Of a DNA stretch of 64,000 nt, positions 21,783 to 42,274 are shown in pieces. Numbering within the stretch: the stretch's first letter is position 1; every line of letters begins with the position of its first letter. Made by a program: the position numbers and the translations under genes. Source of the DNA: Cyclobacteriaceae bacterium. Its GTDB lineage: Bacteria > Bacteroidota > Bacteroidia > Cytophagales > Cyclobacteriaceae. Where the stretch lies: contig CATQIH010000029.1 in assembly GCA_958296015.1 (NCBI GenBank), forward strand, positions 1 through 64,000. Direction: 5' to 3'. The notes beneath the pieces were generated by a model. It was not told the DNA's origin. It saw only the letters and a list, made by a program, of their open reading frames with translations, and made no database searches.

Positions 21783-21813
21783 TTTGTAAATACAAAAGAA
21801 TCATGTACTTTTG
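21783..21813 (+). promoter_or_regulatory. Bacteroidota-type promoter (TTTG-N19-TAnnTTTG)
   Basis: TTTG at 21783-21786, TACTTTTG at 21806-21813, 19-nt spacer; exact match to the consensus. Confidence 0.75.
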
Positions 21814-21819
21814 TAACAA

Positions 21820-21871
21820 CATGTTCACCCCCCTTCTCGTTAGATCAGGGCGCTTAGGGTGAACTTTTTTT
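21820..21871 (+). ncRNA. candidate AbiF-associated small RNA (antitoxin-like) ending in intrinsic terminator
   Basis: GTTCACCC (21823-21830) pairs perfectly with GGGTGAAC (21857-21864), followed by T7 (21865-21871). Inside: CCCT(21831-34)/AGGG(21847-50) and TCT(35-37)/AGA(42-44) around a CGTT loop. Sits between promoter and an Abi_2 gene. Confidence 0.72.
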
Positions 21872-21875
21872 ATTG

Positions 21876-22814
21876 ATGCCTATGCCTAAAGTGCGATATA
21901 ACAAGCCAGCACTCACTTATGAAGAACAACTCCAGCAATTAAAAAATAGAGGTCTTCGAATAGAAAACGATCAAAAAGCTCTTCATCTTTTAGAAAATAT
22001 CAGTTACTATCGTTTGAGTGCTTATTGGTATCCCATGTTAGCCTATCCAAAATCTGCGCATACTTTTAAACAAAATTCGTCTTTTGACGAATCATTTAAA
22101 TTGTATTGTTTTGACAGAGAATTAAGGAAACTGATCGTTGGAGAGCTTGAAAAAATAGAGGTGTCTGTTAGAGCGAAGATGAGTTATATTCTTGCTCATA
22201 GGCATGGGCCATTCTGGTATGAAAATAAGGATCTTTTCAAAGATCAAGATAAACTTGCTAATACTATACAAAAGCTAAAACAAGAACAACTTAGGTCTGA
22301 TGAAGAATTCATTAAAGCGTTTCGAAAGAAATACGCTAATCCTTACCCTCCAAGTTGGATGCTTTTAGAAGTTTCGTCTTTTGGCATTTTATCTAATTTG
22401 TATAAAAACCTAAGTGCTGGACGAAACAAACGAGATATAGCTAGTTACTTTGGCTTAGACGATTCTACTTTTGAGTCATGGCTTCATAGCCTTACTTATG
22501 TGAGAAATATATGTGCACATCACTCAAGGTTATGGAACAAAAAAATGAGTATACAACCTCAAGTACCACTGAAGCCATCAAACTTGTTTATCACAATTGT
22601 TAAACACCCAGACTCACTTCCGGGAAAAATGTCAGCAAGGCTAAATGATAAGACATACTTTATTTTGTGTATCATCATTTACTTGCTCAATACCATCAAC
22701 CCCAACCATACATTTAAGGATAAATTACAAAATTTATTCCTTAAATATCCAAATGTAGACAAAAGGGCCATGGGTTTTCCGGCAGGATGGGAAGAAGAAC
22801 TTATTTGGAGTTAG
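21876..22814 (+). CDS. Abi_2-family (AbiF/AbiD-like) abortive infection protein with HEPN RNase motif
   Basis: KPALTYEEQLQQLKNRGLRIENDQKALHLLENISYYRLSAYWYPM; FDRELRKLIVGELEKIEVSVRAKMSYILAHRHGPFWY; YVRNICAHHSRLWNKKM with R-x4-H (RNICAH). Starts possible at TTG 21873, ATG 21876 or ATG 21882. Confidence 0.9.
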   Translation: MPMPKVRYNKPALTYEEQLQQLKNRGLRIENDQKALHLLENISYYRLSAYWYPMLAYPKSAHTFKQNSSFDESFKLYCFDRELRKLIVGELEKIEVSVRAKMSYILAHRHGPFWYENKDLFKDQDKLANTIQKLKQEQLRSDEEFIKAFRKKYANPYPPSWMLLEVSSFGILSNLYKNLSAGRNKRDIASYFGLDDSTFESWLHSLTYVRNICAHHSRLWNKKMSIQPQVPLKPSNLFITIVKHPDSLPGKMSARLNDKTYFILCIIIYLLNTINPNHTFKDKLQNLFLKYPNVDKRAMGFPAGWEEELIWS

Positions 22815-22913: not shown

Positions 22914-25277
22914 TTATTCATCTCTCAAACTCTCCACAGGGTTGGCCAGTGAGGCGCGGATGCTGTGGTAGCTTACGGTGAGGAAGGCGATCAGGATGCC
23001 TAGCAGACCGGCCATCAGGAATACACCCAGCCCGAGGCTGGTGCGGTAGGCAAAGTTGTCCAGCCAGCGGCTCATCAGGTACCAGGCCAGCGGCGAGGCA
23101 ATGAGCAGCGACAGCAGCACCAGTTTCATAAAATCCAGGGCAAACAGCCGTACGATGCCGCTGATAGAAGCACCGAGCACTTTGCGGATACCGATCTCTT
23201 TTACCCGCCGCTCCGCAGCAAAGGTAGCCAGGCCAAACAGTCCCAGACAGGAAACGAAGATGGCAATGCCTGCAAAATAGCGGAAGATACGGCCTGTGCG
23301 TTGGTCGGATTTGTACAATTGATCGTAGGCATCATCCAGAAACTCGTAGTCGAACGGATAATTGGGATTGTATTTGTTCCACTGTTCCCGTGCGGCGGCA
23401 ATGGCCTGGCTGGCTTCTGCATTGGTGGTTTTGATATACATGCTCCAGCCTTCAGGTACATAGTAAAACGCAGAGGGTTCTATCTTCTGATGAATAGAGG
23501 CAAAATGAAAATCTTTGACGACCCCGATGATCGTGGCCTCTCTCCCCCACAGTGAAAACCGCTTGCCTATCGGGTCTGTAATACCAGCCTCTTTCACTGT
23601 TGTTTCATTGAGCAGGATGTAGGCAGAATCAGCCGGAGCACCACTGAAACTTCGTCCGGTAACCAATGTCAGTTTCATATCATCTATAAAATGCTCATCG
23701 ACGCCCATCGGATGAATCAGAAACGTGCTGGTGGGTTCTTTGCCGTCCCAGTCCGTATCTCCGGTGGTGCTGCCAATATTGGTCAGTTGCTGGTCGGCGG
23801 AGGTGACCGCCAGGATGCCGGGTTGTTGCAATAGCTCGTTGCGGATGCTTTTATAATGCTCTTTCATGTCTCTCATGCCAAAGACAAACACATTCTCCCG
23901 GTCGTAGCCCAGCTTTTTGCTTCTCACGTATTCCATCTGCTGGCTGATGATCAACGTGCCGATGATCAGCGTGAGGGACAAGGTAAACTGAATCACCACC
24001 AGCGACTGTCGGAACGTGCTGTTGCCACTACTGATCTTGCTATGGCCTTTCAGCACATCGAGCGGCTCAAACCCGGAAAGCAGCAATGCCGGATAAATAC
24101 CTGCCGTCACCACCGTAAAACCAAAAGCAGCGGCCAGGGTATACAGCACGGTAGTATCCAGTGCATTGAACGACATCTGCTTGCCCACCAGGTTGTTGTA
24201 GGCAGGCATCAGCAGGTCGGCAGCCACCAGCGTAATGGCCACAGCGATGGTAAATAACAGCATGGATTCTGCCAGCAGCTGCCAGAACAATGTTCTCCTG
24301 TCGGCACCGATCAGCTTTCTCAGGCTGATCTCTTTAGCTCGCTTGGTAGCCCGTGCCGTTGCCAGATTGACATAGTTGATGCAGGCGATCAGCAGAATCA
24401 CAAAGGCGATGATGGCAAAGATGCGCACCTCCTGCATCCCTGCTTCCGTACCGTCTGCGTTGTACAGGTGCGTTTGCAACAATGGTTGAAGGCTGAAGAA
24501 AAAGTCACTTTCATCTTCCGCTTTGGCAGCATGTATTGCTTCTGTTAGTTTATTGCTTACTTCCTTCACAGAGGCTTCCGGTTGCAGCAACAGGTAGGTG
24601 GATTGGTCAAAATTACCCCAGTCGTTGGCCATGTCTTTGAAGTAGCCATTGCCCCAGAATTTCTGTGCAAAAAGGTCCATGCTAAACAGCATATCATATC
24701 GGATGCTGGAATTTTCAGGAAAATCTTCTACAACGCCACTCACCACATAATCCTGTTTGCCATCGGCCTGCATCACCTTGCCCATCGGGTCAGCCTCCCC
24801 AAAGTATCGTCTGGCTGTAGATTCAGTGACGATGACGGAGTACAGATCAGGAAAAGGCTGCTGCTGGTTTCCCTGTAACAAAGGAAAATCAAAGACGGAG
24901 AAGAAAGAAGTGTCTACATAAGCTTTCTCTGATTCGGTGAAGGTCTTGTTCTGGTATTTGAAAAGAGAGACATCGTAATTGTTGTGGATACGCACGGCAT
25001 TTTCCACCTCAGGAATAGATTCCCGGCCCACCCTGGCAACCGGAGCAGGCACACTACCCCAGGTATCTACTGCCCCATTTACGGTAAAGTTGCCATTGAC
25101 ACGATAGACACGGTCGGCTTGGGTGTGCATCGTATCATAGCTTAGTTCGTCCTGCACCCATAGCAGAATGAGCAGGCTGGTGGTGAGGCCCAGCGTGAGG
25201 CCGGCGATGTTGAGGATGCCATACGTTCTTTGCTTCCAGAAATGGCGAAGGGCGGTGGTCAGGTAATTTTTGAGCAT
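22914..25277 (-). CDS. FtsX/MacB-like ABC transporter permease (Bacteroidota four-plus TM type)
   Basis: MLKNYLTTALRHFWKQRTYGILNIAGLTLGLTTSLLILLWVQDELSYD; ATKRAKEISLRKLIGA; RRVKEIGIRKVLGAS; NPVESLRDE. Confidence 0.93.
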   Translation of the reverse strand: MLKNYLTTALRHFWKQRTYGILNIAGLTLGLTTSLLILLWVQDELSYDTMHTQADRVYRVNGNFTVNGAVDTWGSVPAPVARVGRESIPEVENAVRIHNNYDVSLFKYQNKTFTESEKAYVDTSFFSVFDFPLLQGNQQQPFPDLYSVIVTESTARRYFGEADPMGKVMQADGKQDYVVSGVVEDFPENSSIRYDMLFSMDLFAQKFWGNGYFKDMANDWGNFDQSTYLLLQPEASVKEVSNKLTEAIHAAKAEDESDFFFSLQPLLQTHLYNADGTEAGMQEVRIFAIIAFVILLIACINYVNLATARATKRAKEISLRKLIGADRRTLFWQLLAESMLLFTIAVAITLVAADLLMPAYNNLVGKQMSFNALDTTVLYTLAAAFGFTVVTAGIYPALLLSGFEPLDVLKGHSKISSGNSTFRQSLVVIQFTLSLTLIIGTLIISQQMEYVRSKKLGYDRENVFVFGMRDMKEHYKSIRNELLQQPGILAVTSADQQLTNIGSTTGDTDWDGKEPTSTFLIHPMGVDEHFIDDMKLTLVTGRSFSGAPADSAYILLNETTVKEAGITDPIGKRFSLWGREATIIGVVKDFHFASIHQKIEPSAFYYVPEGWSMYIKTTNAEASQAIAAAREQWNKYNPNYPFDYEFLDDAYDQLYKSDQRTGRIFRYFAGIAIFVSCLGLFGLATFAAERRVKEIGIRKVLGASISGIVRLFALDFMKLVLLSLLIASPLAWYLMSRWLDNFAYRTSLGLGVFLMAGLLGILIAFLTVSYHSIRASLANPVESLRDE

Positions 25278-25407: not shown

Positions 25408-25917
25408 TTACCCCTTTTTATTAGTCAGAGAAGCTTTTAACTTCTGAAGGAATGATAGATCCTCAGTGTCACGTGCTTTGTCACGACCTTTTACAGCAGC
25501 TTGTTTGAGCAGGATAAGATCATCTAGGCTTACTACGCGCAGCGGCAGTTTGTCTACCTGCACTGTTTTTACTCTGGCATAAGCATACTGAAAATCGACA
25601 GTATCCAGCTTTTTGAGTACTTCAATACGCAAGGGTGGTTCTCCAATCACCACCATTTTAGGCACCAAAAACATATCAAGTTCAATGTGTTTTTCGTCAA
25701 TGCCATAAGCAGCACATGCCTGTCTCATCTTTTGAGCATTTTCAGGTGTAGCATTGATGAAGATGTCCAGATCGTTGGTACCTCGCGCATACCCATAAGC
25801 ACCGATAGCATACCCACCGATAATCATGTATTCTACCTGAAAGCGGTTTAACACAATGATGAACTCCCGAAAGTTTTCAGGAAACCGCATGTTAGAATTA
25901 CTCGTCGGCATAAGCAA
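25408..25917 (-). CDS. nucleotidyltransferase-fold protein (DUF6036/AbiEii-like)
   Basis: YMIIGGYAIGAYGYARGTNDLDIFINATPEN (minimal NTase G-G-x-A ... D-x-D pattern). Real start possibly the internal MRFPENFREF. Confidence 0.75.
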   Translation of the reverse strand: MLMPTSNSNMRFPENFREFIIVLNRFQVEYMIIGGYAIGAYGYARGTNDLDIFINATPENAQKMRQACAAYGIDEKHIELDMFLVPKMVVIGEPPLRIEVLKKLDTVDFQYAYARVKTVQVDKLPLRVVSLDDLILLKQAAVKGRDKARDTEDLSFLQKLKASLTNKKG

Positions 25918-26092
25918 TACACCGTTTTATCGGATAATTTAATACATCAATCTCTGCCATAGCATACAATGCTACAATTGTCTCACAATACGCCTGAAAG
26001 TTCTCTTCCATAGAGCGAGCGATCGCAATGTCTACTTCTATCTGGAGCAGGTCTTCTTCCGGGTCAGCATATTGTATCTTTCTTGTATTCAT
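25898..26092 (-). CDS. small hypothetical protein, possible antitoxin partner of the nucleotidyltransferase
   Basis: 64 aa acidic ORF; overlaps downstream NTase ORF by 20 nt. Confidence 0.5.
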   Translation of the reverse strand: MNTRKIQYADPEEDLLQIEVDIAIARSMEENFQAYCETIVALYAMAEIDVLNYPIKRCIAYADE

Positions 26093-42039: not shown

Positions 42040-42111
42040 TAGTCCGTAGGGGAATCGAACCCCTGTTACCAGGATGAAAACCTGGCGTCCTAACCCCTAG
42101 ACGAACGGACC
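42040..42111 (-). tRNA. tRNA-Glu (anticodon TTC)
   Basis: Reverse complement GGTCCGTTCGTCTAGGGGTTAGGACGCCAGGTTTTCATCCTGGTAACAGGGGTTCGATTCCCCTACGGACTA; cloverleaf with CCAGG-TTTTCAT-CCTGG anticodon arm and GGTTCGATTCC T-arm. Confidence 0.95.
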
Positions 42112-42202
42112 AGGCCATAAAGACCATCACTTGTGCAAGCAGCGATAGAAGGTTAAAATAATTGAAAATAAGCGTCAATCCATTGTGCGACGTGCCGCTT
42201 AG

Positions 42203-42274
42203 TAGTCCGTAGGGGAATCGAACCCCTGTTACCAGGATGAAAACCTGGCGTCCTAACCCCTAGACGAACGGACC
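42203..42274 (-). tRNA. tRNA-Glu (anticodon TTC), identical second copy
   Basis: Sequence identical to 42040-42111. Confidence 0.95.

Follow-up and report, generated by a model that had tools for sequence, protein, structure and literature searches.

The locus lies on a contig of a Cyclobacteriaceae bacterium, of which we analysed a 64-kb stretch (64,000 nucleotides; the window). A single gene of the Abi_2/AbiF family is found here between a predicted peptidase gene and a predicted permease gene, preceded by a promoter and a small structured RNA (Table 1).

Table 1. Features of the abiF locus and its immediate neighbours (positions in the window).
Feature	Position	Strand	Remarks
M42-like peptidase gene (upstream neighbour)	ends 21774		name from sequence reading
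Bacteroidota-type promoter	21783–21813	+	TTTG 21783–21786, 19-nt spacer, TACTTTTG 21806–21813 (TAnnTTTG)
abiF-type small RNA (predicted antitoxin and terminator-attenuator)	21818–21871	+	about 52–54 nt including the U-tract
RNA outer stem	21823–21829 with 21858–21864	+	GUUCACC/GGUGAAC; 6 of 7 pairs covary in relatives
RNA inner stem	21831–21834 with 21847–21850	+	CCCU/AGGG; 12-nt loop UCUCGUUAGAUC
Unpaired 3' linker	21851–21857	+	CGCUUAG; nearly invariant in the window's protein clade
U7 tract	21865–21871	+	read from sequence; T-run after the outer stem in the RNA model too
abiF gene (predicted Abi_2/HEPN RNase toxin)	21882–22814	+	310 aa; Pfam, PADLOC, 8VZ6 sequence and fold matches
HEPN catalytic motif R-N-I-C-A-H	22503–22520	+	supplies the arginine and histidine of RxxxxH; R, N and H identical in 68/68 proteins
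FtsX-like permease gene (neighbour)	22914–25277	opposite to abiF	name from sequence reading

The abiF reading frame runs uninterrupted and in frame from ATG 21876/21882 to the stop codon at 22812–22814. ATG 21882 is the most likely start, because relatives begin at the equivalent codon; the other in-frame candidates are ATG 21876 (312 amino acids) and TTG 21873. An HMM search with Pfam Abi_2 (PF07751), recommended in the first-pass annotation of this DNA, matched the protein over the entire profile (positions 1–184 of 184; E = 3.4e-59; 200.7 bits against a cut-off of 25.6), and the PADLOC AbiD profile matched at 2.2e-80. By sequence, its sole significant relative in the PDB is 8VZ6 (E = 7.7e-71, residues 6–311), described as a dimer of the AbiF of a Prevotellaceae bacterium (PbAbiF) bound to its ncRNA, AbiFr (Zilberzwige-Tal et al. 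2025, as described in PMC12373285 and PMC12737573). The two proteins are homologous over their full length and 41% identical. A structure prediction of the protein returned the PbAbiF fold: the AlphaFold2 model, made from 27 relatives, has a mean pLDDT of 91.3 and matched 8VZ6 in a fold search with TM-scores of 0.88/0.92 (E = 1.7e-24); the second-best PDB match had E = 0.94. R210, N211 and H215 (numbered from ATG 21876) are unvarying in all 68 aligned proteins. This arginine and histidine correspond to R202/H207 of AbiFCd from Clostridioides difficile, whose mutation abolishes toxicity (PMC12373285), and to R210/H215 of PbAbiF, whose mutation inactivates the protein (PMC12373285). The window protein is a member of the Abi_2/AbiF family with an intact HEPN motif and a PbAbiF-like fold. 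Of the original description, an intact Abi_2 protein of about 313 amino acids with an R-x4-H motif, the family, the integrity and the motif (RNICAH) stand, and the likeliest length becomes 310.

Directly upstream of the Abi_2 gene, the RNA displays a stem-bulge-stem-loop-linker architecture. The element at 21818–21871 folds with −18.4 kcal/mol (z = −3.0), equalled by 2 of 200 shuffles. From the upstream RNAs of 16 Bacteroidota relatives we built a covariance model, R1, that left the window sequence out. All 176 of its 176 pair cells hold standard pairs, and 7 of the 11 pairs have changed on both sides; the second pair of the inner stem, for instance, is C-G in the window RNA and G-C in most relatives. 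Sliding the structure by 1–3 columns as a control abolished the pairing and covariation signal, and RNAalifold, given the alignment alone, arrived at exactly the same structure. R1 matched the window at 21818–21869 (63.3 bits, E = 4.2e-17), so that the element is predicted by a model that never saw the window. Across the host genome the window element was the best match at 3.9e-15, followed by one at 0.06. Covariation and the held-out match put the RNA element far beyond chance, bearing out the compact structured element and U-tract first described from the letters alone. Together, the hairpin and the U7 tract ahead of abiF read as an intrinsic terminator; a generic terminator scan with a loop limit of 8 nt did not list the hairpin.

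For the promoter upstream of the RNA, we scanned the whole 64-kb window with the pattern TTTG-N17-21-TAnnTTTG-N4-AACA. The window holds a sole match, TTTG-N19-TACTTTTG-N4-AACA at 21783–21821, with 0.02 expected by shuffling. Of 59 matches to the RNA models, a set that counts orphans and a small number of rows in the wrong orientation, 46 have a TAnnTTTG ending 4–5 nt 5' of the RNA, compared with 22 of 2832 control windows (0.8%). This fixed distance indicates a dedicated promoter for the RNA and predicts a constant 5' end. The consensus promoter proposed earlier is thus corroborated, both by its uniqueness in the window and by its spacing across relatives, and the roughly 100 nt then assigned to the region before the gene resolve into promoter and RNA; the leader itself is merely 10 nt from U-tract to start codon. 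With the Pfam and 8VZ6 matches, the invariant R, N and H, the R1 match and this promoter, the first-pass identification of an AbiF-type HEPN protein with a dedicated upstream small RNA is supported.

These features also bear on a simpler reading, in which the hairpin merely serves the upstream M42-type peptidase gene as its intrinsic terminator and is unconnected to abiF. A GC-rich hairpin and U-tract about 50 nt past the peptidase stop codon could suggest as much, but the promoter sits between the peptidase gene and the hairpin, conservation and covariation extend over the loop, inner stem and linker, and at other abiF loci the same RNA precedes abiF beside unrelated neighbours without an M42 match. 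On these grounds we rejected this reading as extremely improbable.

The association of RNA and gene recurs among relatives. When 291 genomes of the order were searched blindly with R1, 21 matches in 20 genomes were obtained at E ≤ 0.001. Directly behind the RNA in 12 of these 21 starts an Abi_2 gene, whole or broken; the remaining matches, apart from L083, are orphans. Counted from the gene, and with one divergent clade set aside, an abiF-type RNA precedes at least 55 of 65 Abi_2 genes: 52 by the rule that R1, a further model R2 or Rfam's abiF model (RF03085) matches in the interval from 330 nt upstream of the called start to 60 nt inside it, and also L057, L019 and L088, which escaped that rule for no reason other than start assignment or the hit list. 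Most of the other ten show a similar hairpin by eye. On viral contigs, every R2 match to an Abi_2 locus at E ≤ 1 is found immediately ahead of the gene and on its coding strand. In the divergent, long-branch clade (L021, L113, L114, L116, L117 and L118), an upstream abiF-type RNA was not seen.

The correspondence extends to subtypes. In the protein tree the window AbiF falls into a clade of 11 proteins (SH-aLRT 97), and all 11 carry the same RNA subtype; the PbAbiF clade is separate from it and carries RF03085-type RNAs. That the RNA subtype tracks the protein clade is as expected for partners that touch. Spacing varies as well: in most members of the window clade 6–16 nt separate the end of the model match from the gene, among the shortest distances seen, and in many relatives 30–100 nt lie between RNA and abiF.

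The same data speak to the alternative that the RNA is only a cis-attenuator, that is, a riboswitch-like leader that sets the abiF mRNA level and neither binds nor inhibits AbiF. The hairpin and U-tract just ahead of the start codon would suit such a leader, as would the C. difficile RNA RCd22, which acts in cis by premature termination (PMC12373285). Nonetheless, we consider this alternative unlikely: an RNA in contact with the protein would be expected to show both the matching of RNA subtype to protein clade and the conserved letters of the unpaired linker and loop, direct RNA binding has been described for PbAbiF and AbiFCd, and relatives with a 30–100-nt gap, or with two such RNAs, are at odds with it.

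Some loci (L004, L005, L010, L018, L041, L107 and L108) have a tandem pair of different abiF-type RNAs before one abiF gene, an R1-type RNA first and then one of the form CCTCCC-A-TGC-CTCTCTCTGAT-GCA-CACTT-GGGAGG. RNA-model matches also occur where no intact Abi_2 gene is nearby (L073, L074, L075, L081, L082, L084, L086, L087, L147, L150, L155, L157 and L158). These orphans form tandem pairs in L150, L155 and L158, are followed in L155 and L157 by small genes resembling another toxin-antitoxin pair, and in L074 keep the inner stem via a two-sided change; they could be solitary antitoxins or remnants. At L159 and L160 (genome:contig G113:C65 and G049:C11), a 274-aa gene that is not Abi_2 lies between two R1-type RNAs spaced by about 890 nt.

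The element had initially been connected with the abiF motif of Rfam, whose covariance model does not recover it: RF03085 gave no match at the gathering threshold in the whole window, and none at E ≤ 10 when searched against 1.6 kb or 81 bases of the locus. The RNA is nevertheless there; the negative result reflects a failure of RF03085 to recognise this Bacteroidota subtype. RF03085 itself consists of an outer stem, a 1-nt bulge, an inner stem, an 11-nt loop and a 6-nt 3' linker, and shares with the window RNA an outer stem of 6–7 bp, the 1-nt bulge, an inner stem of 3–4 bp, a loop of 11–12 nt and a 3' linker of 6–7 nt. The linkers occupy the same position but differ in sequence, CAAAUC in RF03085 and CGCUUAG in the window RNA. 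One RNA, that of L023, bridges the models, scoring 37.4 bits with RF03085 (gathering 37) and 30.7 bits with R1 (E = 3.5e-6). On viral contigs, moreover, R2 called five of six Rfam-called loci (L174, L177, L183, L184 and L186) at the same place; R2 comprises 39 sequences including L023 and is not fully independent of RF03085, whereas R1 is independent. Neither R1 nor R2 found the RF03085 RNAs of PbAbiF-like genes and of phiC2, so the homology rests on the bridging sequences and the shared architecture. Judged by these, the window RNA and RF03085 are one RNA family, and the analysis shows that the Bacteroidota subtype overlooked by RF03085 is a large part of that family in Bacteroidota. The first impression of a very short, perhaps minimal RNA needs revision: single-motif RNAs of about 52 nt are the norm among relatives and the Rfam motif measures 37 nt, so the RNA is neither unusually short nor minimal.

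The G+C content of the islet that carries abiF is about 0.34, and that of either flank about 0.51. A second Abi_2 gene was not found in the host genome, where the window abiF is the only one, and none was found in one genome of the same genus. The single-gene islet was most likely acquired horizontally. We compared the site with relatives through M42 orthologues; the peptidase is present there, its flanks are non-syntenic with the window, and no clean empty site emerged. Elsewhere in the window, another low-GC stretch (25411–26092, minus strand) encodes a 169-aa nucleotidyltransferase (DUF2204/DUF6036; PADLOC AbiEii 2.3e-7) with a 64-aa ORF immediately upstream, possibly an AbiE-like toxin-antitoxin pair, and two tandem tRNA-Glu(TTC) genes of equal score lie at 42040–42274 (minus strand).

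A low-GC islet between unrelated genes might also be what is left of a decayed or domesticated module that no longer has toxin activity, and relics do exist among relatives. For the window locus we regard this as very unlikely, given the full-length reading frame, the invariant catalytic residues, the confident fold and the intact promoter and RNA. In the relics themselves, an intact abiF-type RNA (at about position 1501 on the locus's own strand) is followed by a decayed or truncated abiF (L144, L152, L156 and L164). L164 keeps both protein ends and has lost the HEPN core by internal deletion, L156 keeps the first abiF codons and L144 a broken N-terminal part, each behind an intact RNA. An RNA that outlasts its gene, as in these three, is what one would expect if the protein does harm and the RNA does not; the evidence is weak, because 50 nt present a small target for damage and the RNA may have survived by chance.

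We conclude that the locus is very probably an AbiF-type, type III-like module in which a single gene supplies the HEPN toxin and its upstream RNA the antitoxin, with the toxin expressed solely via terminator read-through. What we observed is an AbiF-family protein with its catalytic motif and fold, a promoter, a conserved RNA structure, and an RNA that is paired and co-inherited with the gene; for transcription, termination, RNA binding, inhibition, toxicity and phage defence, we reason from PbAbiF and AbiFCd. The layout, with one promoter, an RNA that has its own terminator and no space for a second promoter before abiF, appears to fit co-transcription of RNA and toxin from one promoter with the terminator between them. 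This single promoter would give a transcript starting at about 21818. Most transcripts would end at the U-tract, yielding an abundant RNA of about 52 nt, and some polymerases would read through to produce abiF mRNA, with the start codon 10 nt past the U-tract. An AbiF dimer would then form the HEPN RNase site, and one RNA per monomer would block its single-strand RNase activity. Upon a shortage of RNA or a disturbance of the complex, most plausibly by phage takeover, freed AbiF would cut cellular RNA and growth would stop.

More tentatively, the conserved loop and linker may have co-diversified with the AbiF clades, giving a distinct Bacteroidota abiF-RNA subfamily and orthogonal RNA-toxin pairs, with AbiF on the nascent RNA perhaps shutting off its own translation or tuning termination. 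With a start codon 6–16 nt after the modelled RNA end in the window clade, AbiF bound to nascent RNA could block translation or tune termination. This is a possibility that we put forward without leaning towards it.

The mechanism of AbiF/ncRNA toxin-antitoxin (phage-defence) systems was already demonstrated in 2025 in other bacteria, and the locus is a divergent but clear member of this group. A useful by-product of the analysis is an RNA subfamily that Rfam does not recognise and that follows the protein clades. In the AbiFCd-RCd22 system of C. difficile phages phi027/phiC2, the order is the same: promoter, abiF RNA, terminator and then Abi_2 toxin (PMC12373285). Most transcription stops before the gene and the toxin is expressed by read-through; AbiFCd is toxic in C. 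difficile and in Escherichia coli, and RCd22 neutralises it in cis by premature termination and in trans by binding (PMC12373285). By contrast, RCd22 contains two abiF motifs in about 100–130 nt, whereas the window RNA has one motif in about 52 nt and is itself the terminator, and AbiFCd is merely about 32% identical to the window AbiF.

The relation to Cas13 ancestors raised in the first-pass annotation is published at the level of the AbiF family (PMC12165695, PMC12373285, PMC12737573), AbiD/F having been grouped with the HEPN domains of Cas13 (PMC12165695). Window AbiF and Cas13 share a HEPN domain and the character of an RNA-bound RNase, but window AbiF has one HEPN per chain of 310 amino acids, with no CRISPR array and no guide evidence. 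No CRISPR repeat family matched at the Rfam gathering threshold in the whole window, and a fold search with the AbiF model gave no significant match to Cas13 (EsCas13d at E = 7.1). The locus is not a Cas13/type VI system, which has two HEPN domains, a CRISPR array and a guide RNA.

The closest likeness is to PbAbiF-AbiFr, with its 41% identical protein, the same fold and the catalytic R and H in the same place. Close relatives of PbAbiF have a single RNA directly upstream, built of an outer and an inner stem, a loop and a 3' linker, and each PbAbiF monomer binds one AbiFr RNA, which blocks the RNase (PMC12737573). The two differ in that PbAbiF belongs to a neighbouring protein clade whose RNA type is recognised by RF03085 while that of the window is missed, and in the sequences of linker and loop. 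The window locus provides a compact AbiF/RNA pair with a single RNA motif, belonging to a clade that adjoins the structurally solved PbAbiF, and the set of protein clade and matching RNA subtype makes RNA-toxin specificity directly testable by cross-clade RNA swaps, for a kind of recognition that is thought to foreshadow that of crRNA by Cas13.
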